DNA from: Arcticibacter svalbardensis MN12-7
Lineage (GTDB): Bacteria > Bacteroidota > Bacteroidia > Sphingobacteriales > Sphingobacteriaceae
Direction of reading: 5' to 3'
Length of the DNA: 64,000 nt
NCBI RefSeq assembly: GCF_000403135.1
Contig: NZ_AQPN01000141.1
Span: 62,001 to 126,000, forward strand
The notes under the pieces are model-generated. The model worked only from the letters and a program-made list of their open reading frames with translations. It made no database searches and was not told the origin of the DNA. The position numbers and the translations under genes are program-made. The stretch's first letter is position 1. Each line of letters starts with the position of its first letter. Of this stretch, positions 8,824-38,915 are shown piece after piece.

Positions 8824-9633
8824 ATGAGTGGTAGCTTAAATAAAGAAAATCCGGAAGTAAGGCTAAGAGCATTCCGGGCAGTAGATGAACCGGAAACCTG
8901 CGAACTCTTTATTGAAGGACATACACACGTTTTAACAAGTATAGGCGTAACCAAAGTTACTTCATCTAAGAATGAATGGATGTTTAATCCGGCGACATTT
9001 GTGATTGTTGTAGAGTCGTTGGATCGTAAAAAAGTATATGGAGGTGCGCGGGTACAGGTGGCAGGAGGCACTGAGCCATTGCCTATTGAACAGGCTACGG
9101 GAGCTATAGATCCGCAGATATTTAAATTGGTTTGGGAGTTTGCACAAAAAGGTACTGGCGAGTTATGTGGATTATGGAATTCGCGCGAGATCTCGGGATA
9201 TGGCATTGGCTGTATTTTTCTAATCCGTGCTGCGGTTGCTATTTCCACTCAAATAGGTATCGAGTCGCTCTTTGCGCTGTGTGCTCCATATACAATAAAA
9301 CCGGTTGAAGCAATAGGCATGGAGCTGGAAGAAAGTATTGGTAACAATGGGACTTTTTATTACCCTAAACTCGATCTTCTGGCTACGACGATGTTATTAA
9401 AGGATGTGTCTACTATCAAAAGAGCCTATCCTGAAGACAAGGATGCTATTTTTAAAATCAGGGAAACTTTAAATATTATCCGTCTGGAGGAATTAAGGCG
9501 GAAAACCATCAAGATCCATTATGAAACTGAGATTCCTTTTATCGATAAATGGGATCTGGGAAATACAATTAAAAATGCAAAAATGAACTTTTTAAAAGGT
9601 CAAATCGATGAAGACGATTTAAGTATCTTTTAA
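8824..9633 (+). CDS. GNAT-fold acyltransferase-like protein (acyl-homoserine-lactone/N-acyl amino acid synthase-like)
   Basis: A 269-residue soluble protein and first gene of a four-gene operon. The middle part (about 95-180) resembles the GNAT/autoinducer-synthase fold: a strand-loop block (GELCGLWNSREISGYGIG), a long helix (RAAVAISTQIG), a strand (LFALCAPYT) and the terminal IGMELEESIG...FYYPK block. The last 90 residues are charged and helical. The fold assignment rests on pattern recognition, and acyl donor and acceptor are unknown. The ATG at 8820 is out of frame and stops at once, so 8824 is the start. The next gene follows after 26 bases, which ties it to the E1-nitroreductase fusion. 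Confidence 0.65.
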   Translation: MSGSLNKENPEVRLRAFRAVDEPETCELFIEGHTHVLTSIGVTKVTSSKNEWMFNPATFVIVVESLDRKKVYGGARVQVAGGTEPLPIEQATGAIDPQIFKLVWEFAQKGTGELCGLWNSREISGYGIGCIFLIRAAVAISTQIGIESLFALCAPYTIKPVEAIGMELEESIGNNGTFYYPKLDLLATTMLLKDVSTIKRAYPEDKDAIFKIRETLNIIRLEELRRKTIKIHYETEIPFIDKWDLGNTIKNAKMNFLKGQIDEDDLSIF

Positions 9634-9659
9634 TTCAATTATCCGTATAACATATATTC

Positions 9660-11951
9660 ATGGAGATAAATCAAAATTATACCCCAACATTATTAAGAAT
9701 CACTAATCCTGCTGATAAAAAAACGTTCGATGCTTTAATTGACGATAAAAAAATTATGTTCTTTCATGACGAAATTTATGGTCAGTTACAGGAACTAATT
9801 AAATCTGAGCATCCTGCTGTAAAGATCAAAAAAGAAGATTATGCGGCATTGATTGATCAGCACCTTGCTGGTACTGATATTCGGGACTATGGGGTATGGG
9901 TTTATTACCCCTGGAGTTTACGTATGGTACATCTGCTGGATGAAGCAGAGTTTGTGGAGGTGCGAACCAACAGAAACCGCTATAAAATTACCAGAGAAGA
10001 GCAAAATGCGCTTCGCGAAAAGAAGATTGGTATTGTGGGCCTGTCAGTAGGACAGTCTATTGCTTTAACCTTAGCGATGGAACGCACCTGTGGGGAGCTG
10101 CGCTTAGCAGACTTTGATACCGCTGAATTGAGCAATCTAAATAGGATTAGGACCGGTGTACAGAACCTGGGTGTCAATAAAGCGATTATTGCCGCCAGGG
10201 AAATTCTGGAGATTGATCCTTTTATAAAGGTTCGTTTATACATGGACGGCCTTCAGGAGGACAATATGAATCATTTCTTTACTGCCAATGGAAAGCTTGA
10301 TCTGTTTATTGAAGTATGCGACGGACTGGATATTAAAATAGAGAGTCGTTATAAGGCAAAGGAATTTGGAATTCCGGTAGTGATGGATACAAATGATCGG
10401 GGAATGCTTGACGTGGAGCGTTTTGACCTTGAGCCTGATCGCCCTGTTTTGCATGGTCTAACTGAAGGATTGGATCCAAAAAGTATAAGAGGGCTGAGCA
10501 ATGAAGATAAAGTGCCCTATATTTTGCGGATGATAGGTGCAGATACGATATCTACCAGGATGAAGGCCTCTATGCTTGAAGTGGAACAATCTATCAATAC
10601 CTGGCCTCAACTGGCATCATCGGTAACTTTAGGGGGTGCGCTTACCACTGACGTGTGCAGAAGGATTTTATTGGACCAATATCATGAATCAGGCCGGTAT
10701 TACATTGATCTGGAAGATTTGGTAAAGGATGAGAAAATAGTACATACGGAGAAAGAGGTTAAAGAAGTAAATCCATATTTGCCTATTGAAAGGTCTGATA
10801 TAAAGGCCCAGGTTGATCAGTATTTTCAAAATAAGGAAGGTTCGGCGTTTGGAGTTACTGAAAGTCAGCTTAATCGTTTGATTGATGCCGCTATAATTGC
10901 TCCATCTGCAGGGAATAATCAACCCTGGAAATGGTTCTATAGTCATAACGTGTTGTTTTTATTTCATGATAAATTTCAGTCCTGGTCATGGGGCGATTAT
11001 TATGAAATGGGATCTCATTTGTCGCTTGGTGGCGCTTTGGAAAACGTGCATATCCAAGCTCAGGCATTAGGTTTAAATGATCATATCGAATTGTTTCCTG
11101 TGAAAGATAGGCCGATGATGATTGCTGCTATTCGTTTTAGTGCTTCAAATGAAGAGGTTACAGCGGATGCGGTTGAACTGGCGAAATATATTTATATTCG
11201 TAATACGAACCGAAAACTGGCGGAAAGAACAGTGTTAGGATCTGATTTTTATCATAGGATGGAGAATGTGGTCCATCAGATCGATCATGTAAACCTCCAC
11301 TATACGGAAGATGAATTGGCGTTGGCTGAATTAGCTGATATAATTGCTGAATGTGATAAGGTTAGGTTACTGAACCAAATGGGTCATGAGGAGTTCTTTC
11401 ATGAAATAAGATGGAACAAAGAAGAGGCTGGCAAGACTAAAAATGGTGTTGAAATTGATGCGGTTGATATAACCCCAAGTGAAAAGGCCGGTTTTAGGGT
11501 TGCTCAGGATTGGAATGCAGTAAAATTACTGGCGCAATGGGACAAAGGCAATGCGTTTAAGAAAATGTCGCTGGATGGTATAAAGTGTGCTTCTGGCATT
11601 GTGGTATTAAGTGTACCTGAATTTACACATGAGGCATTGATTGAGGCGGGAAGGGCAGCACAAAAGGCCTGGATTTTTGCCTGTCAGCAACATGTTGCCG
11701 TACATCCAATGCTTTCTACTGCTTTCTTTTTTAATCGCCTGATGCATGGAAAAGGAAAAGAATTGCCGGCGCATGTGGCGGATAAATTGTCTTTATTGAG
11801 ACAACGTTTTTTAAAGGTGTTCGCATTGGAGGATGTAAATGCTGGTAATCCGGTTCAAAAGGAGGTATTCCTGATGAAAGTTTCGATTGCTCCGGATGCA
11901 GATAGTACATCCTTAAGGAAGGATAAAACAGAACTATTTGATTGGGAATAA
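9660..11951 (+). CDS. ThiF/E1-like adenylating domain fused to a nitroreductase domain (Rv1355c-like)
   Basis: A 763-residue fusion. Residues about 1-105 are a helical N-terminus. Residues 105-300 form a ThiF/MoeB/E1-type Rossmann domain: IGIVGLSVGQ replaces the usual GxGxxG loop, followed by LADFDTAELSNLNR with the Asp and Arg typical of ATP binding. Residues about 395-740 are an FMN nitroreductase domain (LIDAAIIAPSAGNNQPWKWF, later GRAAQKAWIFA). The order matches the Rv1355c family, whose function is unknown to me. E1 domains adenylate carboxylates; nitroreductase-like domains can oxidise cyclised peptides or reduce quinones. It lies 26 bases behind the acyltransferase gene and 14 before the kinase gene, so they are probably co-transcribed. 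Confidence 0.85.
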   Translation: MEINQNYTPTLLRITNPADKKTFDALIDDKKIMFFHDEIYGQLQELIKSEHPAVKIKKEDYAALIDQHLAGTDIRDYGVWVYYPWSLRMVHLLDEAEFVEVRTNRNRYKITREEQNALREKKIGIVGLSVGQSIALTLAMERTCGELRLADFDTAELSNLNRIRTGVQNLGVNKAIIAAREILEIDPFIKVRLYMDGLQEDNMNHFFTANGKLDLFIEVCDGLDIKIESRYKAKEFGIPVVMDTNDRGMLDVERFDLEPDRPVLHGLTEGLDPKSIRGLSNEDKVPYILRMIGADTISTRMKASMLEVEQSINTWPQLASSVTLGGALTTDVCRRILLDQYHESGRYYIDLEDLVKDEKIVHTEKEVKEVNPYLPIERSDIKAQVDQYFQNKEGSAFGVTESQLNRLIDAAIIAPSAGNNQPWKWFYSHNVLFLFHDKFQSWSWGDYYEMGSHLSLGGALENVHIQAQALGLNDHIELFPVKDRPMMIAAIRFSASNEEVTADAVELAKYIYIRNTNRKLAERTVLGSDFYHRMENVVHQIDHVNLHYTEDELALAELADIIAECDKVRLLNQMGHEEFFHEIRWNKEEAGKTKNGVEIDAVDITPSEKAGFRVAQDWNAVKLLAQWDKGNAFKKMSLDGIKCASGIVVLSVPEFTHEALIEAGRAAQKAWIFACQQHVAVHPMLSTAFFFNRLMHGKGKELPAHVADKLSLLRQRFLKVFALEDVNAGNPVQKEVFLMKVSIAPDADSTSLRKDKTELFDWE

Positions 11952-11965
11952 AGGACATATACAAT

Positions 11966-14134
11966 ATGATTAACCGAATTAGTGCAGTGTTTCTATTTTT
12001 ATTTTTCACTTTAAATGCTTCATTTGCTCAGCAGGTGTTGACGTTTAAGGGTGAGCTAGCACCTATTGGTGATCGGGTAGAGATATTGACGGATAGTAAT
12101 TCTACGATGTCGCTACGATCAGCTTTGTCTTCAAAGGAGTTTAAAAGATCATCGGGTAGTCAGTTCCCTAATCTGGGGACAACCCCTTACTCGTATTGGA
12201 TCAGGTTTACATTGAAGAATGAGAGTAATTCGAAGGCCATGGGAATCCAGCTGACGCAATCCATGATGGATTATGTAGATTTTTACCAGGTACAAGGAGA
12301 TTCGGTTACGCGTACAAATTTTACCGGGCACAGAAGGCCTTTTAATAATCGGTTCGTTAAACATCAAACCTACATTTATCAAGTACCGATTATAAAAGGC
12401 GAGAGTCAGACAATTTATCTGAAGGTGAAAAGTGGGAAGCAACTTACGCTGCCTATTTACGTCGGTTCGATAGAAGAGGTAGTGGAAAATGCCATGATTA
12501 TTGATTTGCTGTTTGGCATTTATCTCGGGATAATAATGGTTATGCTGCTTTATAACCTGTTTATTTATTTTTCGATAAGAGACATTACCTATTTATATTA
12601 TGTGTCTTATTTGGGCATTGTAATGCTTACGCAGGCATCTATGCAGGGTTATATCTTCCGGTTTATTCTTCCTGCCTATCCGGAAATAGCTGATATGTTC
12701 ATCTATATCAGTACTTCGCTTATTGGTATTGCGGCCATTGAATTTTCAAAGCACTTTCTTTCTTCTAAACAATATACGCCATTACTACACCGGATATCCT
12801 ACATTTTTTGGGCTTTATATGGCATCCAGATTTCTTTGGCTATAGCTGGATTTCACAATTTTAGTTATACCATGATGTTGGCTTTGGCCATGGTTAGTGC
12901 AGTGTATGTGTTGTATATGGCTGTAGTGATCATGCTGAAGGGATTTCGCCCTGCAAAGTTCTTCCTGATAGCCTGGACCGGTTTTATCTTTTGTGTGATC
13001 ATTTATGTACTGAAAGATTTTGACCTTATTTTCCATTACAACAACATTACCAACTTTACCTTACTGATTGGATCTGCTTTCGAAGCGATTATGCTATCAT
13101 TTGCATTAGCTGATAAGATAAATATTCTTAAAGTGGAAAAGGAGCAGTCGCAGCTGGAAACTTTAAAGGCATTGCAAGAGAATGAGCGGATCATAAAAGA
13201 GCAAAATGTTGTTCTGGAAGCAAGAGTGATTGAACGTACATCGGAATTGCATGAAGCCAATGAGGAGCTTAATAGTACGTTAGAAAATCTGAAACAAACA
13301 CAATCTCAGCTTGTTGAATCAGAAAAGATGGCTTCATTAGGTCAGCTCACTGCAGGTATAGCACATGAAATAAATAATCCTATAAATTTTGTCACTTCCA
13401 ATATTAATCCATTAAAGCGGGATATTGATATTTTACTTGCTGCACTGGATGAAATTGAAATTGTTGGTTTGTCTGATAGCACTATTTCTGCAAAACAGCT
13501 GCGTATTAAAGAATATAAGGAAGAGCTTGATTTTGACTATCTTAAGGTAGAAATTAATCAGCTGGTTAAAGGGATCAATGAAGGAGCATCGCGCACTGCA
13601 GAAATAGTAAAGGGACTTCGGGTTTTTTCGCGGTTGGATGAAGATGACCTAAAGAAGGCGGACATTAATCAGTGCCTTGATTCGACCATGATTATTGCTA
13701 ATAATCAATTGAATAACAATATTAAGGTAATAATGGAGTATGGTGAATTGCCTTTAGTTGAATGTTATGCCGGAAAGCTAAACCAGGTTTTTCTGAATAT
13801 TATTATTAACGGTATACATGCTATCCATACAAAATTTGGTAGTACTTCGGGTGGAGAGTTGAAAATTGCGACTTATGCTGATGAAGAAAATGTGTTTATA
13901 AATATTTATGATAATGGAATAGGAATGGGACCTGAAACGCAGAAAAAAATATTTGAGCCGTTCTTTACTACTAAAGATGTGGGTGAGGGTACCGGTTTGG
14001 GTATGTCAATTGCATACAATACGATCAAAAAACATAAGGGTCAGATAAGTGTTATGTCTTCACCAGGTGAAGGCTCGCAGTTTAGTCTTCAAATACCCAT
14101 TCATAATAATCAATCATTATCTCATCTGAATTAA
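11966..14134 (+). CDS. 7TMR-DISM histidine kinase
   Basis: A 722-residue membrane sensor kinase. It has a signal peptide (residues 1-22), a periplasmic 7TMR-DISMED2-like beta domain (about 25-175, with SYWIRFTLKNES), seven transmembrane helices (about 180-385), a coiled coil (about 390-450), a HisKA domain with His467 in GIAHEINNP, and a HATPase domain (NQVFLNIIINGIHAI, DNGIGM, FEPFFTTKDVGEGTGLG). DISMED2 domains are thought to bind carbohydrates or other small ligands. The frame extends to a TTG at 11942 inside the previous gene, but the ATG at 11966 gives the signal peptide. Receiver proteins encoded next door are likely phosphorylation partners. Confidence 0.92.
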   Translation: MINRISAVFLFLFFTLNASFAQQVLTFKGELAPIGDRVEILTDSNSTMSLRSALSSKEFKRSSGSQFPNLGTTPYSYWIRFTLKNESNSKAMGIQLTQSMMDYVDFYQVQGDSVTRTNFTGHRRPFNNRFVKHQTYIYQVPIIKGESQTIYLKVKSGKQLTLPIYVGSIEEVVENAMIIDLLFGIYLGIIMVMLLYNLFIYFSIRDITYLYYVSYLGIVMLTQASMQGYIFRFILPAYPEIADMFIYISTSLIGIAAIEFSKHFLSSKQYTPLLHRISYIFWALYGIQISLAIAGFHNFSYTMMLALAMVSAVYVLYMAVVIMLKGFRPAKFFLIAWTGFIFCVIIYVLKDFDLIFHYNNITNFTLLIGSAFEAIMLSFALADKINILKVEKEQSQLETLKALQENERIIKEQNVVLEARVIERTSELHEANEELNSTLENLKQTQSQLVESEKMASLGQLTAGIAHEINNPINFVTSNINPLKRDIDILLAALDEIEIVGLSDSTISAKQLRIKEYKEELDFDYLKVEINQLVKGINEGASRTAEIVKGLRVFSRLDEDDLKKADINQCLDSTMIIANNQLNNNIKVIMEYGELPLVECYAGKLNQVFLNIIINGIHAIHTKFGSTSGGELKIATYADEENVFINIYDNGIGMGPETQKKIFEPFFTTKDVGEGTGLGMSIAYNTIKKHKGQISVMSSPGEGSQFSLQIPIHNNQSLSHLN

Positions 14135-14158
14135 GTTGTTCGCATAAAATAGAACCCA

Positions 14159-15244
14159 ATGGCAGAAAAGATAAAAATTTTATACATTGATGATGAGCCT
14201 GATAATTTAATAGGTTTCAAAGCATCCTTTCGCTTTGATTATCAGGTTTATATTGCGGAAAATGTAGCAGAAGCCTACTTGCATCTGGAAAAAAATTCTG
14301 ATATAAGGATTGTATTTTGTGATCAACGGATGCCTGATCAGACAGGAGTTGAGTTTTTTGATGACCTTAGATCTCAATATCCATCTGTAGTTAGGATACT
14401 GCTAACGGCTTATACCGATGTGGAGTCTATTATTGATGCAATCAACAAGGGGAATATTTTCAGGTTTGTTAAAAAGCCATGGGCGGAGATTGACATTATT
14501 TCAGCAATTGAAGAGGCCAATAAATTTTTTATCAGCAATTATATGCTTGCTGTTAAGCACGATGAATTGCAGAAAGCATATAGCGAACTGGATAAGTTTG
14601 CCTATAGTGTGAGTCATGATATCCGTGGTCCGCTTTCTGGTATTCTGGGTGCAATCAATGTAGCCAGGGTAACTGATGATGTTGAAGGTATGAAAGAAGT
14701 GTTGGGCATGATGGAGAAATCGTTGGAAAACCTCGATAATTACATTGTGAATATGCATGAATACCATAGTTTGCAAAGAGGAGAACTGAAGATTAAAGAA
14801 ATTGATTTCAAGGAGATAGCATCAGGTTTAAAAAATATTTATCAGGTAATTGCAGAAACAAGGAACATCTCTTTTATTTTAAAGATTGATCAGTCGGAAC
14901 CTTTCTATAATGATGAGGCGCCAATACAGCTTATTCTGAATAATCTTTTATCCAATGCGTTCAAATATCAGGAAAAGGGAAAGTCGGATAAAGTTGTTGA
15001 ACTCAGTATTGAGGTGAACAAAGAACAGGCAACTTTTCAAATAAGTGACAATGGAATTGGGATTCTGAGAAATCATATCAATGAGATTTTTAATCTGTTT
15101 TACAGGGCTACATCTCAATCTACAGGATCGGGTTTTGGTCTTTATAATGTGAAGAGTGCAATATTAAAGCTAAACGGACATATAGAGGTTAGCTCCGTGT
15201 TGAATAAGGGAACTACTTTTAAAGTGATTATTCCGAGTAAGTAA
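14159..15244 (+). CDS. Receiver domain-histidine kinase protein
   Basis: A 361-residue cytosolic protein with an N-terminal receiver (about 6-120; DDEP acidic pair, phosphoacceptor Asp55 in FCDQRMP, Thr in LLTAYTD, Lys in VKKPW) joined by a short helix to a kinase core: His153 in YSVSHDIRGPLS, then a HATPase domain with NNLLSNAFKY, DNGIGI and GSGFGLYNV. It starts 24 bases after the membrane kinase gene, so it probably acts downstream of it in a phosphorelay. It has no DNA-binding domain, so its output must pass to another protein, possibly the lone receiver encoded convergently. Confidence 0.92.
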   Translation: MAEKIKILYIDDEPDNLIGFKASFRFDYQVYIAENVAEAYLHLEKNSDIRIVFCDQRMPDQTGVEFFDDLRSQYPSVVRILLTAYTDVESIIDAINKGNIFRFVKKPWAEIDIISAIEEANKFFISNYMLAVKHDELQKAYSELDKFAYSVSHDIRGPLSGILGAINVARVTDDVEGMKEVLGMMEKSLENLDNYIVNMHEYHSLQRGELKIKEIDFKEIASGLKNIYQVIAETRNISFILKIDQSEPFYNDEAPIQLILNNLLSNAFKYQEKGKSDKVVELSIEVNKEQATFQISDNGIGILRNHINEIFNLFYRATSQSTGSGFGLYNVKSAILKLNGHIEVSSVLNKGTTFKVIIPSK

Positions 15245-15257
15245 GCTTTGATGGTGT

Positions 15258-15722
15258 TTAATCGAGTAACTTTTGCCTTAATATAAATTCAAGCTGATCA
15301 TTAGAGGTGGCTAATTTTTCATTCATGATTTTCACTTCTTCGTGTTCCTTATATACCTCGTATGCACGCTTAATTGTCATATCAAGTTCTTCTTCATTCC
15401 ATGGCTTACTCAGGTAATGGAATATTTTCCCCTTGTTTACGGCGTCTACTACGGCTGCCATATCAGCATAACCAGTTAATAGGATGCGGATAGGATCGGG
15501 AAATTCCTCAATCACTTTTTCTAAAAATTCGACGCCTGTCATATTGGGCATTCTTTGATCCGTGATGATAATGTGGACTTGATTGGAGCGCATTAATTTA
15601 AGGGCCTCATCTCCACTGTTAGCAATCAGAACTTTATATTTTATGCGGAAAACAGCCTTAAAGGAAAACAGGTTATTTTCTTCATCATCAACATAAAGAA
15701 TTTTGATTTTTTTATCTGGCAT
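15258..15722 (-). CDS. Single-domain response regulator with C-terminal helix
   Basis: A 154-residue protein: a receiver at 6-122 (VDDEE, phosphoacceptor Asp55 in ITDQRMPN, LLTGYAD, LSKPWN) followed by a charged helix that looks like a short coiled coil (VYKEHEEVKIMNEKL). The receiver is clearly related to that of the neighbouring receiver-kinase, down to the DQRMP and KPW motifs and Asp position. It is convergent with that gene, 13 bases apart, on the opposite strand. With no effector domain it may shuttle phosphate or bind another protein. Confidence 0.88.
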   Translation of the reverse strand: MPDKKIKILYVDDEENNLFSFKAVFRIKYKVLIANSGDEALKLMRSNQVHIIITDQRMPNMTGVEFLEKVIEEFPDPIRILLTGYADMAAVVDAVNKGKIFHYLSKPWNEEELDMTIKRAYEVYKEHEEVKIMNEKLATSNDQLEFILRQKLLD

Positions 15723-17506: not shown

Positions 17507-18805
17507 ATGGATTCTATTGGACATACATATCGGGCTAAAAATGCACGGATTGCGGTTATTGGTCTCGGATATGTAGGATTGCCTCTTGCTATCGAATTTG
17601 CTAAAAAATACCCTGTATTGGGTTTCGATATCAATCAGGGGCGTGTAAAGGAACTGTCGGAAGGACGAGACCGTACACAGGAAGCTGATATTGATGATTT
17701 ACAACTGGTTATGGTTAGCAAAGGTCTTTGCTTTTCATGGAACAAGGAGGATTTATCTGCTTATAATACCTTTATAGTTACTGTGCCTACTCCAATAGAT
17801 GAGTTTAAATCGCCCGACCTTCAACCTTTGATAAAGGCTTCCGAAATGCTGGGTTCGGTATTAAAAGCAGGTGATGTGGTCATTTATGAGTCTACAGTTT
17901 ATCCGGGTTGTACAGAGGAGGTATGTATTCCTGTACTGGAAAAAGTATCTGGTTTAGTATTTAATAAAGATTTTTTTGCGGGATATTCGCCTGAACGTAT
18001 AAATCCCGGAGATAAAATTAATACGCTCACTAAAATTAAAAAAGTAACCAGTGGCTCAACGCCTTTCATTGCTGATGAAGTGGATGCCTTATATGGTTCT
18101 ATTATTTTAGCCGGAACGCATAAAGCACCTAGTATAAAGGTTGCGGAAGCATCGAAAGCGATCGAGAATGCGCAGCGTGATGTAAATATCTCTTTTGTGA
18201 ATGAACTCTCGCTCATTTTTGACCGGATTGGAATTGATACAAATGATGTTATTGAAGCTGCAGGTACCAAATGGAATTTTTTAAAATATAAACCAGGACT
18301 AGTTGGAGGGCATTGTATAGGGGTCGATCCTTATTATCTGGCTTATAAAGCGCAGTCGCTGGGGTATCATCCACAGGTTATTTTATCAGGCAGAAGGGTA
18401 AATGATGCCATGGGGGCTTTCGTAGCTGATAAAGTGGTTAAACTTATGATTCAAAAAGATCAACGTATTAAAGGCTCTAAGGCGTTGATTTTAGGGGTTA
18501 CTTTCAAGGAGAATTGTCCTGATGTACGCAACACCCGTGTGGTTGATATTTATCATGAATTAATGGATTTTGGAGTAGAAGTGGTTATTTATGATCCATG
18601 GGCAGATAAAGAAGAAGTTAAACGGGAATATAAGGTGGATATATTAAATACATTAGATATGAGTATTCGCTATAATGCCATAATAGTTGCGGTAGCTCAT
18701 AAAGAGTTCTTAGGTTTAGATTATGAGGCCTTAAAGATGGAAGATGGAGTAATATTTGATACTAAAGCATGTTTAAGACGGGAAATAGTAGATGCCAGGT
18801 TATAA
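17507..18805 (+). CDS. Nucleotide-sugar dehydrogenase (TviB/WbpO-like, UDP-HexNAc dehydrogenase)
   Basis: A 432-residue enzyme of the UDP-glucose/GDP-mannose dehydrogenase family, which oxidises a UDP-sugar at C6 to the uronic acid with two NAD+. It shows the N-terminal Rossmann loop (AVIGLGYVGLPLA), the TVPTPIDE motif, YSPERINPGD, and the catalytic Cys270 in GGHCIGVDPYYL. The C-terminal domain starts near LILGVTFKENCPD. Length and motif spelling fit the UDP-N-acetylhexosamine group (TviB, WbpO) better than UDP-glucose dehydrogenase. First gene of the polysaccharide locus, divergent from the TRIC-like gene and ending well before a strong terminator. Confidence 0.9.
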   Translation: MDSIGHTYRAKNARIAVIGLGYVGLPLAIEFAKKYPVLGFDINQGRVKELSEGRDRTQEADIDDLQLVMVSKGLCFSWNKEDLSAYNTFIVTVPTPIDEFKSPDLQPLIKASEMLGSVLKAGDVVIYESTVYPGCTEEVCIPVLEKVSGLVFNKDFFAGYSPERINPGDKINTLTKIKKVTSGSTPFIADEVDALYGSIILAGTHKAPSIKVAEASKAIENAQRDVNISFVNELSLIFDRIGIDTNDVIEAAGTKWNFLKYKPGLVGGHCIGVDPYYLAYKAQSLGYHPQVILSGRRVNDAMGAFVADKVVKLMIQKDQRIKGSKALILGVTFKENCPDVRNTRVVDIYHELMDFGVEVVIYDPWADKEEVKREYKVDILNTLDMSIRYNAIIVAVAHKEFLGLDYEALKMEDGVIFDTKACLRREIVDARL

Positions 18806-19109
18806 TTGGTCTTATAAAGTCGAAAATGTGGAATAATAGATAAAATAATAGAGCGGAAGTTTAGAGATTAAATATATTTTTGTTTTGGTTTTAAATCTTA
18901 TCAATTAATTTTTAACAAAAAGAACATGATATATAAATGTTGTTTAATAGTAAAGACATATAATTTCCTAAATTCCTTACTAATAGTCCGAAAGAGTATA
19001 AATACAATAAGTTCATAATTGTATTTATACTCTTTTTTTTATTTAAAAATATAAAAACTCTTTATTTTTATTTGCGTATAAATACCTTATTATATACGTA
19101 TATTTACTT
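18806..19109. other. 304-base intergenic region with terminator and leader of the next gene
   Basis: AT-rich, no ORF. Its main content is the 16-bp perfect hairpin described separately. The 70 bases between the hairpin and the ATG at 19110 are almost pure A/T and should hold the promoter of that gene, but I see no exact TAnnTTTG box. Confidence 0.4.
18993..19040 (+). terminator. Strong Rho-independent terminator inside the polysaccharide locus
   Basis: A perfect 16-bp stem (18993-19008 with 19018-19033), a 9-base loop and a run of eight T. It lies between the sugar dehydrogenase and the next plus-strand gene, so it would stop transcription early in the locus unless an antiterminator acts. 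A UpxY/NusG-type factor is encoded 0.9 kb downstream. Confidence 0.85.
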
Positions 19110-19421
19110 ATGGCACAGATGGTAATAGAAAAATCGATAAGCTTTCATGATCAGCCAATGCTGAAAATGAATGGAACTGATTATGTAGTCAACATTGAGG
19201 AGATCGAGGCATTCATTGAGCAGTGTGGAAAATTTATGCCTTTGGACAATGTGGCACAATTTGAGGTGCTTACTCAAGAAATTTCGGACACGTTAATTGA
19301 CTCTGCACGCGGAGATTTAACCATTGAACAAATAAGACCACATCTCCTCTTTTTAAGAGAAATTGGTTTCTTATTAAAAACAATGTTAAGTCCCGTGCAA
19401 GAAAACAATCTACCTATCTAA
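19110..19421 (+). CDS. Hypothetical protein in the polysaccharide locus
   Basis: A 103-residue soluble protein, acidic, predicted mostly helical after a short beta-like start (MAQMVIEKSISFHDQPMLKM). The central part (IEEIEAFIEQCGKFMPLDN) and tail (RPHLLFLREIGFLLKTML) are amphipathic helices. No signal, membrane helix or known motif. I do not recognise a family. It sits between the strong terminator and the convergent HTH gene and may be a small regulator, since it lies in the regulatory corner of the locus, but that is only position-based. Confidence 0.65.
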   Translation: MAQMVIEKSISFHDQPMLKMNGTDYVVNIEEIEAFIEQCGKFMPLDNVAQFEVLTQEISDTLIDSARGDLTIEQIRPHLLFLREIGFLLKTMLSPVQENNLPI

Positions 19422-19433
19422 TTTAATGGGTTA

Positions 19434-19450
19434 CCCCCTGATTATGGGGG
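19434..19450. terminator. GC hairpin between convergent genes
   Basis: CCCCC at 19434-19438 pairs with GGGGG at 19446-19450 around a 7-base loop, followed by ATTATTAT. It lies 12 bases past the stop of the 103-residue gene and just before the end of the convergent HTH gene. Short stem, so moderate support. Confidence 0.4.
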
Positions 19451-19468
19451 ATTATTATCGCCGATCTT

Positions 19469-19861
19469 TTATAGATAAAGCGAATTCTTTTCAACGTAGG
19501 CTAGTAGTAGCTGGTTATGTTTTTCCAACAAGTCAATATATTTGTCTTTCCAATATTGCTCGTTTCGTGTTCTTCCGTCAAATTCCTCCTCAACATATAC
19601 GGCTTCATCAGGCGTGTTAGGGAGGCTTCGTTGGTCGGTTTTCATAAATAACTCAGGAAACTCATTTGAGAAGTCATGTTTAAGAGCTACACCAATTTTA
19701 TGAATAATTGCAGGTTTTAGATATTTTTGGTTAAACCAATTATATACTGAGCGGCGATTAACATCCGTCAAGCGTGCAAGTTCACTGATGCTGTACCCAT
19801 TTCTCCTAATTACCTTCTCAATAATTTGTCCATAGTGCTGATCTTTGAAATTTTCATTCAT
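19469..19861 (-). CDS. Small HTH regulator, copy A
   Basis: A 130-residue protein with an N-terminal helix-turn-helix (about 11-50: GQIIEKVIRRNGYSISELAR followed by LTDVNRRSVYNWFNQ), typical of Cro/Fis-like or MerR-like small binders. A variable middle is followed by a conserved C-terminal helix (YWKDKYIDLLEKHNQLLL) that probably makes a coiled-coil dimer. A clear paralogue lies at 23538-23900 on the same strand. It follows the UpxY gene by 12 bases and is probably translated from the same mRNA. Target sites are unknown; control of the polysaccharide genes is inferred from position. Confidence 0.82.
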   Translation of the reverse strand: MNENFKDQHYGQIIEKVIRRNGYSISELARLTDVNRRSVYNWFNQKYLKPAIIHKIGVALKHDFSNEFPELFMKTDQRSLPNTPDEAVYVEEEFDGRTRNEQYWKDKYIDLLEKHNQLLLAYVEKNSLYL

Positions 19862-19873
19862 GTTTTTTTTTAG

Positions 19874-20497
19874 TTAAGCCTGTGCAGCCAATGCTGAACC
19901 AGCAATAGAATTTGCAAATATGATATTTTGATTAACGGATACTTTTGCGATCAATACGCAATCTAATTGTTGGATACTTATTAAAACTGATTTGCCTTTA
20001 ACCTCCATAATTTCCCCCTCACAATTAATGAAAGCTCCTTGTGTTATCTTGATTCGATCTCCAGGAGAAAAATCTCGTATGCTTAAAGTTTCAATATCTT
20101 TGTATGTATCTACTATTTGTCTTATTTTTTCAATATCAGCATCATTTACTATTGCCGGTTTACCGCAGTAATAAATAAAATTGATGATTCCCATTGTTTC
20201 TCTTACTTTATTTTGTTCCAGTGAATTAATACGAACAAATAAATAAGAACTAAACAAAGGCATTTCTACAGTTGTGTTTCGGTCTGCCCATTTACGACTA
20301 GTTTTTACCAGAGGGCAAAAACATTCTATATCTTTTTCCTTTAATAAGCGATCAACTTTCTTTTCCCATTTTGAACGTGTATAGATCACCATCCATGTCT
20401 TTTTTAAACCTTCATTTTTTGTAAGTAAAGTTCCGTTCATATCCCTGATTTCTGACCTTGTATAACTTGTATTAATCTTGTTATTATAACTTAACAT
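19874..20497 (-). CDS. UpxY-family transcription antiterminator (NusG paralogue)
   Basis: A 207-residue NusG-like protein. The NGN domain starts at about residue 33 (KKTWMVIYTRSKWEKKVDRL), with CFCPLVKTSRKWADR and the strand PLFSSYLFVRI; the KOW-type part is at about 145-190 (FSPGDRIKITQGAFINCEGE). Bacteroides UpxY proteins bind elongating polymerase and allow read-through of long capsule operons. Here the gene points away from the glycosyltransferase genes and is followed by an HTH gene rather than a UpxZ gene. A second in-frame ATG at 20440 would give 188 residues and cannot be excluded as the start. Confidence 0.9.
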   Translation of the reverse strand: MLSYNNKINTSYTRSEIRDMNGTLLTKNEGLKKTWMVIYTRSKWEKKVDRLLKEKDIECFCPLVKTSRKWADRNTTVEMPLFSSYLFVRINSLEQNKVRETMGIINFIYYCGKPAIVNDADIEKIRQIVDTYKDIETLSIRDFSPGDRIKITQGAFINCEGEIMEVKGKSVLISIQQLDCVLIAKVSVNQNIIFANSIAGSALAAQA

Positions 20498-20956
20498 TAA
20501 TACGAAATTAATTAAAAACCTTCTCGAAAATCTGATACTTTCTCACCATGTATAACACTTTGTAGATAAGTGTGAAAACTTATGAAACATATTGAAATAT
20601 TGAACTGGTTACTATTATTTACAATAGTTCACACATATAATTAATTGGTAGCCAGTGTTTCTCATTAATTCCCGCGTTTTGCTACATATACTAGATTTAT
20701 TCCTATAATCAGAATAACGACGTTACTTTTATGATAATAATTAAAGGCATATTCAAATAGAGATTAATTTTTTTAATGACTTAATAGCACTTTATTTATG
20801 TTTTATTAAGTGATGTAAAGAATACTTAATATGGATTGCTGTTAAATATTTTTTCACTCTTGTTATTCAAATATGAGGTGTGATTTTATAATACTCAGTT
20901 TGCCAGATCAATTTAATATTTCAACAATTAAATAGCTATATCTAATCTATCAATAA
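20498..20956. promoter_or_regulatory. 459-base divergent regulatory region (upxY / double glycosyltransferase)
   Basis: AT-rich, no ORF. It must hold promoters for both the UpxY unit (minus) and the glycosyltransferase gene (plus), yet no exact TAnnTTTG box is present near either start. Two overlapping short stems (20555-20560 with 20568-20573, and 20566-20571 with 20578-20583) share bases and are mutually exclusive. They would lie in the UpxY leader on the minus strand. Confidence 0.4.
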
Positions 20957-23527
20957 ATGAAAGTACTGCATGTTGTTCCTTCAGTGAATCCTAATTTTGG
21001 CGGAGTGTCTCAAGCTGTAAGGACACTTATTATTGGCTTGTATGATGAAGGAATTCAAAATGAAGTTGTTTGTCTTGATGATCCTCTAAGTGATTATATC
21101 AAGAGTAGTGCTATCAAGATTCATGCTGTTGGACAAGGAACAGGTCCATGGCATTATCATAAATCTTTTTATCCTTGGTTAATACAGAATCTTAAGCTAT
21201 ATGACAATGTTATTCTTCATGGTTTATGGCAATATCCTGGATATGCATTGTATAAAGCACTAAAAGTAATTGCAGAAAATCGGCCTAAATTATATATCAT
21301 GACTCATGGTATGCTTGATCCATATTTTCAAAAAGCGGAGGGAAGAAAGTTAAAAGCGATACGGAACATTATTTATTGGAAATTAGTGGAGCAAAAGCTT
21401 GTTAATTTTGCAGATGGCATTTTATTTACATGCGATGAGGAAAAAAGATTAGCACAAATGACCTTTCTGCCATTTCACCCTAAAAGCGAATTGGTAGTAG
21501 GACTTGGTGTTGAAGAACCTCCTGTAAAAAACGCAGTGATGATGGCGGATTTCTATGCGCGTTTTCCGGAACTTGAAAATCAGCGATATCTACTTTTTCT
21601 TGGTCGAATAGATGAGAAAAAGGGAATAGCGATGTTGATTCAGGCCTATAAGCAATTTACTCATTCGCTTTTAGAAAAAGATCCTTTGCAGGTACTACCT
21701 AAATTGCTTTTAGCCGGACCAGGGTTAGAGAGCCTGCATGGAAAGCAGTTAATGGAACTGGCTGAATCTATTTCGTCTAGTAGCAATCACATCATTTTCC
21801 CTGGAATGTTGTCTGGTAATTTGAAATGGGGTGCATATTATGGGTGTGATGCATTCGTTTTGCCCAGTCATCAGGAGAATTTTGGTATCGCAGTAGTTGA
21901 AGCTTTGGCTTGCAGTAAACCGGTGCTGATATCAAATCAGGTGAACATATGGAATGATATTGCTAATGAAGGTGCGGGATTAGTTGCTGATGATACCTTA
22001 TACGGTACAGGAACTCTTCTTCAATTTTGGCATAACTTATCTTCTAATGATAAAATAGTTATGGGAGAGCATGCCAGGCAGGCTTTTGAGAGTCGTTTCG
22101 CTCTTGCAATTGTGATGAAACAGTACGTGGAAAAATTGAATCTAGGGAGAGTAGTTAAAAAACAGCATGAGCCAAAAGAGGTATCTGTTTCCCCTATTCA
22201 TGAAGAGGAACATAAGTTTAAAGCTAAAAATAGGAAGGTCTGTACTCCTCATAAAAAAAAGGTGTTAATTCTGGGAATCAATTTTGCTCCCGAATTAACC
22301 GGAATAGGAAAATATACAGGTGAAATGGTGGACTGGCTTGTAGATGATGACTACCAGGTTACCATGGTTACATCTTTTCCTTATTATCCTAACTGGAGTA
22401 TTCATAAACCATATTCGGGCAAATGGTTTAAAAAGGAAACAGAGAAGGAAGGGAAGCTTACTGTTTTTCGTTGTCCTATGTACATACCTTTAGTTCCTTC
22501 CGGTTTAAAGAGAGTTTTGCAAGAGCTTACTTTTTTTATAAGTTCATTTTTTATAATATTCTTTTTGCTGTTCAAGAAAAAACATGATCAGATTTTTGTA
22601 ATGGCACCTCCTTTCCATTTAGGTTTTCTTAGTCTGTTTTATCGTTTTTTTAAAGGTGGTAAGATAGATTATCATGTGCATGATATGCAAATTGAGTCTG
22701 CCAAACAGTTAAGAATAATTAAGGGTGACATTGCTTTCAGGATTTTATTCATGCTCGAAAAATATATACTGAATAGTGTGGATTATGTAAGTACTATTTC
22801 AGGAGGAATGAAAGCGAATATTCAAAAGAAGGTTCAGCGTGATATTATTATGTTTCCTAATTGGGTCGATACTCAAAAGCTTTTTCCTATTACTGATCGG
22901 CAATCATTAAAAAAAGCCTGGGGATTTAACGTAGAGGATAAAATTATTCTTTATTCAGGAAGTATTGGTGAAAAACAGGGTTTGCAAAGCCTGGTTCCTA
23001 TTGCTAAAAGCTTGCAGGCTTATGGATTTATTAAATTTGTGATCTGTGGAATTGGACCATATAAAGAGCACTTGATTAAATTAGTTAACAAGGAGCGGTT
23101 AAGCAATATCTTTTTCTTGCCACTTCAACCTCTAGAACAGTTTAATAGCTTGTTAAATATGGCCGATGTGCATCTTGTTCTACAAAAGAAAAATGCAGCA
23201 GATCTAATGTTGCCATCAAAATTAACAGGAATATTATCATCAGGAGGTTTGGCTCTAGTAACAGCCGATCCGGGCACTTCTTTATATAAAGTTATAATGG
23301 ATCATGAAATGGGAATTGTGATTCCAAGCGAGGATGATAATGCTTTAAAAGAAGCGATTCTGGATTGCTGTGTATCAGACCATACCAGCGAAACCGTAAA
23401 TGGTCGCTGGTATGCTGAAAAGTATCTGAATAAAAATAATATAATTAGCAATGTGATGCTATATCTTACAGAACCTTCATTAGTAAATAAAAGTACCTTA
23501 GAATATCTTGATCTAAGGCATGCATAA
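20957..23527 (+). CDS. Double glycosyltransferase: GT4 domain fused to a WcaI-like GT4 domain
   Basis: An 856-residue fusion of two GT-B enzymes. The first (about 1-400) opens with VLHVVPSVNPNFGGVSQA and has LFLGRIDEKKGI and the EX7E motif in HQENFGIAVVEAL. A charged linker (about 400-432) leads to a second enzyme from about 434 (KVLILGINFAPELTGIGKYT), which matches the WcaI colanic-acid transferase type: TSFPYYPNW, YHVHDMQIESA, FPNWVDT, LYSGSIGEKQGLQ, LPSKLTGIL. The second half has two hydrophobic segments near 530-550 that may touch the membrane. It likely adds two consecutive sugars to a lipid-linked repeat unit. The frame is unbroken, so this is a true fusion. Convergent with HTH copy B. 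Confidence 0.88.
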   Translation: MKVLHVVPSVNPNFGGVSQAVRTLIIGLYDEGIQNEVVCLDDPLSDYIKSSAIKIHAVGQGTGPWHYHKSFYPWLIQNLKLYDNVILHGLWQYPGYALYKALKVIAENRPKLYIMTHGMLDPYFQKAEGRKLKAIRNIIYWKLVEQKLVNFADGILFTCDEEKRLAQMTFLPFHPKSELVVGLGVEEPPVKNAVMMADFYARFPELENQRYLLFLGRIDEKKGIAMLIQAYKQFTHSLLEKDPLQVLPKLLLAGPGLESLHGKQLMELAESISSSSNHIIFPGMLSGNLKWGAYYGCDAFVLPSHQENFGIAVVEALACSKPVLISNQVNIWNDIANEGAGLVADDTLYGTGTLLQFWHNLSSNDKIVMGEHARQAFESRFALAIVMKQYVEKLNLGRVVKKQHEPKEVSVSPIHEEEHKFKAKNRKVCTPHKKKVLILGINFAPELTGIGKYTGEMVDWLVDDDYQVTMVTSFPYYPNWSIHKPYSGKWFKKETEKEGKLTVFRCPMYIPLVPSGLKRVLQELTFFISSFFIIFFLLFKKKHDQIFVMAPPFHLGFLSLFYRFFKGGKIDYHVHDMQIESAKQLRIIKGDIAFRILFMLEKYILNSVDYVSTISGGMKANIQKKVQRDIIMFPNWVDTQKLFPITDRQSLKKAWGFNVEDKIILYSGSIGEKQGLQSLVPIAKSLQAYGFIKFVICGIGPYKEHLIKLVNKERLSNIFFLPLQPLEQFNSLLNMADVHLVLQKKNAADLMLPSKLTGILSSGGLALVTADPGTSLYKVIMDHEMGIVIPSEDDNALKEAILDCCVSDHTSETVNGRWYAEKYLNKNNIISNVMLYLTEPSLVNKSTLEYLDLRHA

Positions 23528-23537
23528 ATTAAAATAG

Positions 23538-23900
23538 TTACGCCACCGATACCTTGTGTAAAAGCAAGGTGTTGTAGCGTTCCAGTAAATCAATGTATTT
23601 ATCTTTCCAATAATGTTTATTGTAAAGATCCTCAGGTTGATCCGTACTATTATTTAAGAATGAAGTTTTTCTAAATCCTTTTTGAAAATCTTCAGATGTG
23701 AAGAGCTGCGGTAGCTCTACAGAAAAATCATGATTGATGACACATCCAATCCTATAAATAATTTCAGGCTTAAGTTGTTGTTGATTAAACCAGTTATAGA
23801 CTGAGCGTCTGTTTACATTCGTTAAGCGTGCAACGTCACTTATTGAGTGCCCATTTCTTCTTACTACTTTTTCGATAATTTGTCCGTGATGAATTAGCAT
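23538..23900 (-). CDS. Small HTH regulator, copy B
   Basis: A 120-residue paralogue of the protein at 19469-19861. Shared blocks are HGQIIEKVVRRNGHSIS, RLTNVNRRSVYNWFNQ, and the C-terminal YWKDKYIDLLERYNTLLL; the middle differs. The N-terminal half is an HTH DNA-binding domain and the last helix probably dimerises. It is transcribed alone, convergent with the double glycosyltransferase gene and divergent from rfbB. A CRP-like palindrome lies about 140 bases upstream of its start. Likely a local regulator of the polysaccharide locus, by position. Confidence 0.82.
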   Translation of the reverse strand: MLIHHGQIIEKVVRRNGHSISDVARLTNVNRRSVYNWFNQQQLKPEIIYRIGCVINHDFSVELPQLFTSEDFQKGFRKTSFLNNSTDQPEDLYNKHYWKDKYIDLLERYNTLLLHKVSVA

Positions 23901-24042
23901 GTTTTGAGAGTTAGTTAATTTAAAACTAGTGTTACCAAGTGTTTTTTTTGTTTATATATACACGATCTGTGTATTTATTTCCTCATGTGTGGAATTTTTT
24001 GCTCGTTATTTATCTCATTTATATAAATTTACAATAATAAAA

Positions 24043-24056
24043 GTGACCTGCGTCAC
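24043..24056. promoter_or_regulatory. CRP/FNR-type operator candidate
   Basis: GTGA-CCTGCG-TCAC matches the palindromic core GTGA-N6-TCAC used by CRP-family regulators, with a flanking A on each side. It is 143 bases upstream of the HTH copy B start and about 330 upstream of rfbB. No CRP-family gene is in the window. Confidence 0.45.
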
Positions 24057-24334
24057 ATAACTTAATCAGATATTCTCGCATCTTCTGTTCAATAAACAAT
24101 ATCTGTACCGATATTGAGACTCCAAAAAACATTAATATACATATATGCTCATTATCTATGTACGGAAAGAAGATTAGTTTGGATGTTTATCTTTTATTTT
24201 TTTTATAAACTAAACGCTAGATATAATTCAGATTTGCAATTTCTTATGTTGTTTGAAGTTAAACTTTAGAAAAACTTTGTTTTTTAATAATTAGTAACGA
24301 GAGCATCTTGAATACTTGTTTCATACTGTACTGA

Positions 24335-24363
24335 TTTGATTTCGTTTAAAGTGTGTAGATTTG
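24335..24363 (+). promoter_or_regulatory. Promoter of the rfbBCDA operon
   Basis: TTTG at 24335-24338 (-33 type) and TAGATTTG at 24356-24363 (-7 type), 17 bases apart, match the two-part Bacteroidota promoter. Transcription would start about 20 bases before the rfbB ATG. Confidence 0.55.
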
Positions 24364-24388
24364 TTCATATTTGCTAGTAAGATAATTT

Positions 24389-25441
24389 ATGAAGAAAATA
24401 CTCATCACAGGGGGAGCCGGTTTTATCGGATCACATGTAGTCAGAAGATTTGTTACTACCTATCCCGAATACCAGATCATAAACCTGGATAAATTGACTT
24501 ATGCGGGTAACCTGGCCAATTTAAAAGATATAGAAGATCAGCCTAATTACCGTTTCGTAAAAGGCGATATCGTGGATGCCGCCTTTATTGATGACCTTTT
24601 TGAAAAAGAGTCATTTGATTCGGTGATCCACCTGGCCGCAGAGAGCCATGTAGACCGCTCTATTTTCAATCCTTTAGAGTTTGTGATGACTAATGTGCTG
24701 GGCACGGTCAACCTCCTTAACGCAGCGCGCAAGTACTGGAAGAACGCATATCCTGCACATCGTTTCTATCATGTCTCCACCGATGAGGTATACGGAACAC
24801 TGGGTGAAGAAGGCCTGTTTACAGAAGAAACCGGATATGATCCTCATAGTCCTTATTCCGCATCGAAGGCCAGTTCCGACCATTTCGTACGGGCCTATGC
24901 CGACACGTATGGAATGAATACAGTGATCTCCAACTGTTCGAACAATTACGGATCGTTTCATTTCCCTGAAAAGCTGATTCCGCTTGCCATCAACAACATC
25001 AAGAACAACAAACCCGTACCGGTATATGGTAAGGGAGATAATATACGCGACTGGTTATGGGTGGAAGATCATGCCCGTGCGATCGATGTCCTGTTCCATG
25101 GTGCAGAAGCGGGACAGACCTACAATATCGGTGGTCATAATGAATGGAAGAACATTGACCTGATTCATGAGTTGTGCCGGATTATGGACAGCAAACTGGG
25201 CCGCGAGCCAGGAACATCAGCCAAACTGATCACCTTTGTGACAGACCGTGCAGGCCATGACCTGCGTTATGCGATCGATTCATCCAAATTACAGCGGGAA
25301 CTGAACTGGACCCCAAGCCTTCAGTTTGAAGAAGGACTGGAGAAAACGGTAGACTGGTACCTGCAGAATGAAGAGTGGCTTGAAAACGTCACCTCGGGCA
25401 ATTACCAGTCCTATTATCAGGGGCAATATAACGCACGCTAA
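24389..25441 (+). CDS. rfbB: dTDP-glucose 4,6-dehydratase
   Basis: A 350-residue extended-SDR enzyme, second step of dTDP-L-rhamnose synthesis: dTDP-glucose to dTDP-4-keto-6-deoxyglucose, with bound NAD+. Motifs: GGAGFIGSHVVR at the N-terminus, HLAAESHVDRS, catalytic HVSTDEVYGTLG and YSASKASSDH. First of a tight rfbB-C-D-A operon behind its own promoter. The DNA of this operon is visibly richer in G+C than its neighbours, which may reflect transfer or strong codon selection. Confidence 0.96.
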   Translation: MKKILITGGAGFIGSHVVRRFVTTYPEYQIINLDKLTYAGNLANLKDIEDQPNYRFVKGDIVDAAFIDDLFEKESFDSVIHLAAESHVDRSIFNPLEFVMTNVLGTVNLLNAARKYWKNAYPAHRFYHVSTDEVYGTLGEEGLFTEETGYDPHSPYSASKASSDHFVRAYADTYGMNTVISNCSNNYGSFHFPEKLIPLAINNIKNNKPVPVYGKGDNIRDWLWVEDHARAIDVLFHGAEAGQTYNIGGHNEWKNIDLIHELCRIMDSKLGREPGTSAKLITFVTDRAGHDLRYAIDSSKLQRELNWTPSLQFEEGLEKTVDWYLQNEEWLENVTSGNYQSYYQGQYNAR

Positions 25442-25481
25442 TTCCATTACCAATTCCATCACCCCAGCATAAAAGAATTAC

Positions 25482-26039
25482 ATGAATATCATCCCTACAC
25501 AACTCGAAGGCTGTTTCATCATCGAGCCGGCCGTCTACCCCGATTCAAGGGGTTACTTCTTTGAGAGTTTCAATGAAGCGGGTTTTAATGAAAAGACCGG
25601 ACTGGATGTACATTTTGTACAGGATAACCAGTCGCTGTCCACCTATGGAGTACTGCGTGGCCTGCACTTCCAACAGGGAAGCTATGCACAGGCTAAACTG
25701 GTGCGTGCCATTAAAGGCACGGTACTGGATGTAGCCGTAGACTTGCGTGCAGGTTCAACTACGTTCGGTCAGCATGTCAGCGTGCTGCTGAGTGCTGAAA
25801 ACAAAAGACAGCTATTTGTTCCACGCGGTTTTGCCCATGGCTTTGCCGTGCTGAGCCCTGAAGCGGAGTTTTTTTATAAATGCGATAACTATTACAATAA
25901 AGCCTCCGAAGGGTCATTGCTTTATAGTGATGCCGATCTGGCCATAGACTGGCAGCTTCCCGCAGGGGATATCCTGGTATCAGAAAAAGACCAGGTCAAT
26001 GCTACATTTCAAACCTTTAAAGAAAGATTAACACGATGA
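25482..26039 (+). CDS. rfbC: dTDP-4-dehydrorhamnose 3,5-epimerase
   Basis: A 185-residue cupin-fold epimerase, third step of dTDP-L-rhamnose synthesis. Typical motifs are DSRGYFFESFNE, the catalytic His in GVLRGLHFQ, LVRAIKGTVLDVAVDLR and PRGFAHGFAVLS. Length is normal for the family. It starts 40 bases after rfbB and its end overlaps the start of rfbD by 4 bases (ATGA), a sign of translational coupling. Confidence 0.96.
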   Translation: MNIIPTQLEGCFIIEPAVYPDSRGYFFESFNEAGFNEKTGLDVHFVQDNQSLSTYGVLRGLHFQQGSYAQAKLVRAIKGTVLDVAVDLRAGSTTFGQHVSVLLSAENKRQLFVPRGFAHGFAVLSPEAEFFYKCDNYYNKASEGSLLYSDADLAIDWQLPAGDILVSEKDQVNATFQTFKERLTR

Positions 26040-27753: not shown

Positions 27754-27808
27754 GATATCGAGCTGATATAAATATTTATATGAGTCCAAAAAAGGTATAA
27801 CCGTAATG

Positions 27809-27844
27809 AAATTTACAATAAAGCATTAAATCTATTGTAAATTT
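27809..27844 (+). terminator. Hairpin after rfbA
   Basis: A perfect 12-bp inverted repeat, AAATTTACAATA at 27809-27820 with its complement at 27833-27844. All-A/T stem ends and only a short T run, so a weak terminator or processing site about 55 bases past the rfbA stop. Confidence 0.5.
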
Positions 27845-27989
27845 TGAATTATCAACTTATATTTACTACCAAAGAGAAATGGTTATTTAGTATTAGGTAA
27901 CATATGGGTTAGCAATTAGCAAATTGTGTAAATTGCCTAATCTGTAATATCATAATATTTCAAAACAGATAAGAATTAAAAAATTACAA

Positions 27990-38600: not shown

Positions 38601-38915
38601 AATGCTTTTTGAATTTGGTTATTTTACTTGTATGAATTAATAAACCATTGATGTGTAGTGCTTTGTATTGATTCGGTAATAGTGAATCAAATATAAATTA
38701 GGCGTATTTATAAAAGTAAACTAGTAGTGTCCACTGCTTAAAGTAATAAATTTAAACTTGAAAGCAAAATAAGCGGGTAGCATTTAGCAATGCAAGACAG
38801 TTAATCGATAGTATTCTTTTTGGAAATCAACCTTATTCCTTCTGAATTAAATAAAATGAATTAATAAGTTTGTTTTACCGGAGTACTATCGGTGTTATCA
38901 TCATCTATACCCATT
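38601..38915. promoter_or_regulatory. 315-base divergent promoter region (hflKC / helicase)
   Basis: No ORF. On the minus strand TATATTTG (38695-38688) would drive hflK with an 80-base leader; on the plus strand TAAGTTTG (38865-38872) would drive the helicase gene. Nothing else stands out. Confidence 0.5.

Follow-up and report, generated by a model that had tools for sequence, protein, structure and literature searches.

Does a kinase encoded beside a pair of biosynthetic enzymes read the compound that these enzymes make? The question is raised by a five-gene unit in Arcticibacter svalbardensis MN12-7, a soil and ice bacterium of the Sphingobacteriaceae. The unit lies at positions 8824-15722 of the 64,000-nucleotide stretch analysed here (the window; positions 62,001 to 126,000 of contig NZ_AQPN01000141.1). 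We consider it likely that this cassette is a make-and-sense operon whose signals are carboxyl-capped N-acyl amino acids and whose relay is receiver-only. In support of this reading, enzymes and kinase are kept together across genomes, and exchanges of the last enzyme bring a new sensing half of the kinase with them.

A five-gene unit of two enzymes, a sensor kinase and receivers

The original prediction had described four plus-strand genes separated by gaps of 26, 14 and 24 bases and followed by a convergent lone receiver gene. Open reading frame (ORF) calls and Pfam and NCBIfam domain searches agreed with this layout, with 13 bases between the fourth gene and the receiver gene. The features of the unit are as follows.

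8824..9633, plus strand: protein modelled as a GNAT-fold N-acyl amino acid synthase (FeeM/TrzA-like), 269 residues; AlphaFold2 model and Foldseek, kinase neighbour in about 150 of 151 family genomes
9660..11951, plus strand: TrzS-type oxazolone synthase, 763 residues, with ThiF cyclase and flavin mononucleotide (FMN) nitroreductase-fold desaturase; NCBIfam NF005901, Pfam ThiF and Nitroreductase
9981..10382, plus strand: ThiF/E1 domain core of TrzS; Pfam PF00899, residues 108-241
10815..11924, plus strand: FMN-dependent desaturase (FDO/nitroreductase) domain of TrzS; PF00881 residues 399-426, Rv3131/Acg family residues 407-684
11966..14134, plus strand: 7TMR-DISM sensor histidine kinase, 722 residues, with signal peptide, DISMED2, seven transmembrane helices, HisKA and ATPase; Pfam, with H, N and G boxes conserved
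12071..12463, plus strand: extracellular domain of DISMED2 type, within the exchangeable sensor block; PF07696 residues 36-166, 1-2 enzyme-type changes on its trees
12503..13117, plus strand: seven-transmembrane (7TM) domain in the membrane, likewise within the exchangeable sensor block; PF07695 residues 180-384, 1 enzyme-type change, distances track the last-step enzyme
13109..13292, plus strand: recombination boundary zone between the exchangeable sensor and the conserved kinase part; residues 390-450 of a 730-residue frame, identity profiles of mosaic pairs
14159..15244, plus strand: receiver-histidine kinase (REC-HisKA-HATPase), 361 residues; Pfam, phospho-acceptor Asp and H-box His conserved, adjoins the DISM kinase in 77 of 83 TrzS loci
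15258..15722, minus strand: lone receiver, 154 residues, with a short C-terminal tail; Pfam Response_reg, beside the DISM kinase in 15 of 16 enzyme-free solo loci

The DISM kinase combines DISMED2, 7TMR-DISM_7TM and HisKA/HATPase domains (Pfam), the domain content of a 7TMR-DISM histidine kinase. Its start was placed at the ATG at 11966, with a TTG at 11942 as a possible alternative. The conserved unit has the GNAT gene at one end and the lone receiver at the other. Many relatives carry a second small receiver of about 133 residues that is missing in the window. This 133-residue downstream ORF of relatives was considered as a histidine phosphotransfer (HPt) protein or a new enzyme, and both were ruled out, as it is a receiver. 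A downstream EEP-phosphatase gene and an upstream aldo-keto reductase gene were excluded from the unit because they are conserved only within the closest relatives.

The enzyme pair and its predicted product

The 763-residue protein matches the Rv1355c family equivalog NF005901 at 783 bits (cut-off 476) and lies above the cut-offs of both Pfam ThiF and Nitroreductase. The TrzS of the nearest named genome, A. eurypsychrophilus MJ9-5, is 96% identical to it. In comparison with actinobacterial homologues, residues C220, D221, D224 and K226 of the adenylation motif E-x-CD-x-x-D-x-K are invariant, as are the ThiF motifs G-L-S-V-G, D-F-D and L-N-R; this is a comparison of motifs, and the ThiF residues of the window were not mapped one to one onto the published D217/R540/Q651 mutants. 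Rv1355c is TrzS, for which cyclisation (ThiF domain, ATP) and then desaturation (flavin domain, O2) were demonstrated in 2025 on an N-acyl tryptophan made by its neighbour TrzA, with N-acyl tryptazolones as end products. TyzACB, for tyrazolones, and OxzAB are pathways of the same kind as TrzAS (PMC12856293, PMC10404671).

The 269-residue protein had been read as a GNAT relative of autoinducer synthases. Searches of Pfam and NCBIfam gave no family match and did not place it by sequence among the LuxI-type acyl-homoserine lactone (AHL) synthases, and BLAST and hidden Markov model comparisons detected no sequence similarity to FeeM or LuxI-type synthases, so that the likeness is structural only. 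The protein was folded with eight relatives using AlphaFold2. Its model (predicted local distance difference test, pLDDT, 83.6; predicted template modelling score, pTM, 0.85) had FeeM (2g0b) as the best solved match in Foldseek, with an E-value of 3.6e-9, followed by the AHL synthases MesI, BjaI, TofI, LasI and EsaI. It thus models as a GNAT-fold N-acyl amino acid synthase of the FeeM/LuxI type, in line with the earlier reading.

Because of the Rv1355c-family equivalog match, the conserved ThiF motifs and the FeeM fold, an N-acyl oxazolone is the most likely product of this pair, predicted here with amino acid and chain length unspecified. The GNAT enzyme would acylate an amino acid, whose carboxylate TrzS would then close to an oxazolone ring and desaturate, yielding a neutral, membrane-permeable N-acyl oxazolone.

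On Rhodococcus plasmids (L194, L198), Rv1355c-family genes lie beside a GGDEF gene and a divergent gene for a 260-residue hypothetical protein. No sequence match was found between this 260-residue neighbour and the GNAT of the window, and the plasmid-borne TrzS regions examined contained no kinases.

Enzymes and kinase stay together across genomes

In a survey of 301 genomes of Sphingobacteriaceae, TrzS was found in 111 (E <= 1e-50), GNAT in 151 (E <= 1e-15) and the DISM kinase in 167 (E <= 1e-60). About 150 of the 151 GNAT genomes also carry the DISM kinase, the exception being G157. Wherever coordinates are known or the locus is on an intact contig, GNAT and kinase are a few kilobases apart or less. 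We compared 129 family loci, the window included, which were picked by TrzS or kinase matches, so that frequencies of types among them are not population frequencies. The 83 TrzS loci contained GNAT in 82 cases, the kinase in 81, and the receiver-kinase and the lone receiver in 77 each, with a median gap of 11 bases between cassette genes. Two TrzS loci were free of the kinase (L074 and L108), of which L108 is cut by a contig end. A phylum-wide GNAT profile search of 396 genomes identified 13 genomes, nine of them outside the family, and in all nine the kinase stands beside GNAT.

The arrangement of the unit is not a product of chance, as it is repeated in clearly more than 100 genomes. The expectation that the enzyme genes are kept with DISM kinase genes was confirmed, since the two are almost never found apart. 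Synthase and receptor genes are conserved together here, as they are in synthase-receptor systems of cell-cell signalling. Genomes with the kinase and without TrzS were considered as cases of uncoupled kinases. This was rejected, as in most of those examined a methyltransferase takes the place of TrzS, and 16 are solo kinases proper.

The slot of the last enzyme is exchangeable

Among family loci with GNAT and kinase and without TrzS, 29 encode a class I S-adenosylmethionine (SAM) methyltransferase of about 254 residues in the TrzS slot. A ThiF protein without the nitroreductase (NTR) domain occupies it in about 25 further loci, and a single locus (L131, in genome G044) has an oxidase linked to flavin adenine dinucleotide (FAD) and resembling glycolate oxidase. 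The sensor of L131 differs from that of its kinase sibling L081, with identities of 82% in the kinase core and 37% in the extracellular domain. In another family, the slot of loci L212 and L213 holds a membrane methyltransferase of the isoprenylcysteine carboxyl methyltransferase (ICMT) type. It is unrelated to the class I methyltransferases of Sphingobacteriaceae, and its nearest solved structures are isoprenylcysteine carboxyl methyltransferases. These tailoring enzymes may share a chemistry, namely neutralising the carboxylate of an N-acyl amino acid by ring closure or esterification. Biochemical precedent exists only for the ThiF-NTR route, and the FAD oxidase fits the carboxylate-capping idea least. 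In published N-acyl tyrosine clusters, a synthase of this type is accompanied by genes for ThiF, nitroreductase and a UbiE-like methyltransferase (PMC12479983).

The sensor half of the kinase tracks the last enzyme

Loci were labelled as ThiF-type or class I methyltransferase-type, and label changes were counted on the tree of each part of the cassette. The sensor half of the kinase required 1 change, compared with 14 for the kinase half, 12 for GNAT, 14 for the receiver-kinase and 15 for the receiver. Sliding along the kinase in segments of 90 residues gave 1-2 changes over residues 31-450 and 11-15 from residue 391 onward; shuffled labels gave about 24. The jump falls at residues 390-450 of the 730-residue frame, which is the sensor/kinase junction. 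In an IQ-TREE analysis of 53 loci, all methyltransferase-type sensors were on one side of a branch with support 100, and for the kinase half a single methyltransferase-type group was rejected (approximately unbiased test, p-AU 3e-6).

The same mosaic is visible in individual pairs. Between L117 (ThiF) and L161 (methyltransferase), GNAT identity is 78-100% as far as about residue 180; across the sensor identity is mostly 12-30%, and in the kinase it returns to 60-100%. L076 and L132, from the same genus, are 92% identical in the receiver-kinase, 93% in the receiver and 19% in the extracellular domain. Pairwise distances form two blocks, one of GNAT, tailoring enzyme, extracellular domain and 7TM, the other of kinase core, receiver-kinase and receiver. 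Distances of the last-step domain correlate with those of the 7TM at r 0.90 for both NTR and methyltransferase, and with those of the kinase or receiver-kinase at 0.51-0.66, the pairs being non-independent and the values given without a p-value.

The last enzyme and the sensor half thus travel as one allele in the ThiF/class I methyltransferase exchange, in the manner of agr, and the receptor specificity region co-diversifies with the synthase as in synthase-receptor signalling systems. A hypervariable block of enzyme and sensing half between conserved flanks is expected of dialect synthase-receptor pairs, which makes sensing of the finished product the best explanation. The DISM kinase would read this product with its extracellular and membrane half. 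Replacing the enzyme (ThiF or class I methyltransferase) would bring a replacement of the sensor half, with the kinase half and receivers retained, and so give rise to strain dialects. Linkage, fold and module swaps together support the make-and-sense coupling of the original prediction, with the product as putative ligand of the kinase. The joint swaps of last enzyme and sensor in relatives suggest a previously undescribed chemical language in Bacteroidota. We lean towards a family of such small-molecule languages based on carboxyl-capped N-acyl amino acids, with one conserved synthase and phosphorelay and with dialects arising by joint replacement of last enzyme (oxazolone-forming or carboxyl-methylating) and sensing half.

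A plausible relay, and solo kinases

The phospho-acceptor Asp is kept in the receivers and the H-box His in both kinases, and a phosphorelay is therefore plausible. As had been claimed for the cassette, Pfam searches found no DNA-binding domain in the receiver or the receiver-kinase, so outputs are expected elsewhere. Phosphate would pass from the DISM kinase to the lone receiver and the receiver-kinase, in a unit that encodes no DNA-binding output.

Kinases without any enzyme were found in 16 loci (L178-L193, one of them cut by a contig end) of a Mucilaginibacter-type genus, g15. The divergent lone receiver is the only cassette partner kept with the kinase (15 of 16 solo loci), which makes it the likeliest direct partner of the kinase. 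The neighbourhood of the solos (a 491-residue gene reading as RpoN, a 338-residue PorP/SprF-like gene and a gene of about 1190 residues) is that of full cassettes in another genus. This suggests that enzymes and receiver-kinase were lost or gained as a set, in either direction. Solo kinases are possibly listeners that do not speak, or they represent the state before gain or after loss.

Enzyme-free second kinase copies also occur beside a full cassette in the same genome (L150, G168:C33, and L149, G048:C11), and L150 retains the whole relay. In L214 (G406), from another class of the phylum, the position of the receiver-kinase is taken by a receiver followed by an apparent PAS domain and a HisKA_3-type kinase.

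Alternative explanations

We rate as unlikely a reading in which the product is not the ligand: kinase and relay would respond to a signal from the environment or the envelope, and would govern the making of an oxazolone lipid that serves in the membrane or as a stress compound. Earlier work ties oxazolones to stress physiology, and tryptazolones mostly stay in the cell (PMC12856293). Sensor genes often adjoin genes under their control, and since the unit encodes no DNA-binding output, control could run either way. However, this leaves unexplained why a change of the last enzyme comes with a replaced sensor half when the kinase half, GNAT and receivers are not replaced.

It is improbable that sensor and tailoring gene move together merely as a diverged block between recombining conserved GNAT and kinase flanks, with no functional match. 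In most loci the block is contiguous, and the exchanges take place between GNAT and kinase flanks of high conservation. Nevertheless, the boundary sits at the functional sensor/kinase junction, and the enzymes almost never occur without a DISM sensor. Even in ThiF-NTR loci where GNAT stands between TrzS and the kinase, NTR tracks the 7TM most closely (r 0.88, against 0.83 for GNAT and 0.46 for the kinase, again from non-independent pairs). Loss of the NTR domain is likewise better tracked by the 7TM tree (5 changes) than by GNAT (10) or the kinase (13). These arguments make hitchhiking less likely.

An antimicrobial product, with the kinase as a sensor for self-immunity or producer autoregulation as in lantibiotic clusters, is very improbable, even though sensors for a producer's own antibiotic are common. 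N-acyl tyrosines and stieleriacines can act against other bacteria, but acid forms are reported as active and methyl esters as inactive, so that carboxylate methylation would reduce activity (PMC12479983); moreover, among relatives' loci the unit has no conserved gene for transport or immunity, and enzyme-free solo sensor loci exist.

Several observations weigh against a make-and-sense operon. The main caveat is that enzyme and sensor are adjacent between conserved flanks, so that flank recombination could move both without a functional match, and the distance correlations come from the non-independent pairs noted above. L074 is a genuine exception, a TrzS-GNAT pair without the kinase. The actinobacterial TrzS gene adjoins cyclic-di-GMP genes and not a DISM kinase (see also PMC12856293). 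The enzyme-free solos have sensors distant from both the ThiF and the methyltransferase types. Biochemical precedent exists only for the ThiF-NTR route, and the FAD oxidase fits the carboxylate-capping idea least.

Other genes of the window

Polysaccharide genes lie near the cassette at 17507-29105 and 43054-51513 (UDP-sugar dehydrogenase, NusG-like protein, glycosyltransferases, GDP-mannose dehydratase and Poly_export/SLBB); they are not conserved with the cassette in relatives. At 38892-42062, the window encodes a 1056-residue helicase with PLD nuclease-like and DUF3427 domains, a kind found in defence-type restriction/helicase proteins.

Implications and comparison with known systems

The original prediction knew of no described system of this composition. 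The enzyme pair, however, is of a known kind (TrzAS/OxzAB; PMC12856293, PMC10404671), so that novelty is confined to its link with the sensor. A literature search, with subscription journals (including the original OxzAB paper) outside its reach, found no earlier description of oxazolone or N-acyl amino acid enzymes with DISM kinases, nor of the fixed coupling, the exchangeable last enzyme or a sensing half exchanged along with it. Taken singly, the enzymes and the sensor family have been described before.

The physiological role of N-acyl oxazolones has been called a major unresolved question (PMC12856293). If our reading is true, oxazolones gain a signalling role in Bacteroidota. Oxazolones or related capped N-acyl amino acids would be tied to a specific receptor by gene order and repeated module exchange, making the role of oxazolones testable in non-pathogenic genera that live mostly in soil and water (Arcticibacter, Pedobacter, Mucilaginibacter). 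Confirmation would provide a cognate ligand class for one 7TMR-DISM receptor clade and an agr-like dialect system of small molecules.

Several known systems come close. In TrzAS (Rv1356c-Rv1355c) and TyzACB of Mycobacterium tuberculosis and OxzAB of Pseudoalteromonas rubra, as in the window, an N-acyl amino acid synthase adjoins a ThiF-desaturase fusion. The cassette adds a 7TMR-DISM kinase and receivers in one operon, whereas actinobacterial TrzS-type genes adjoin cyclic-di-GMP genes, and among its relatives the place of the fusion can be taken by ThiF alone or by a methyltransferase. The stieleriacine and N-acyl tyrosine clusters also combine an N-acyl amino acid synthase with ThiF and nitroreductase, and with UbiE-like methyltransferase genes as well; unlike the window, they have no sensor kinase reported in the available text (PMC12479983). 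FeeM, the best solved match, and the LuxI-type AHL synthases share their fold with the 269-residue GNAT, which differs in having no detectable sequence similarity to them and no Pfam family match and in being partnered by a sensor kinase instead of a LuxR-type regulator.

In gene arrangement, CqsA/CqsS of Vibrio and LqsA/LqsS/LqsR of Legionella similarly place a small-molecule synthase gene beside a multi-transmembrane sensor kinase and receiver, with a lipid-like signal. The window differs from them in its enzymes, sensor family and chemistry, and in the exchangeable slot of the last enzyme. In agr of Staphylococcus and ComQXPA of Bacillus, hypervariable signal-making genes and a sensor half lie between conserved flanks and define specificity groups with peptide signals. 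Compared with these, the cassette is predicted to use small molecules, and wholly different tailoring enzymes take turns in one slot.

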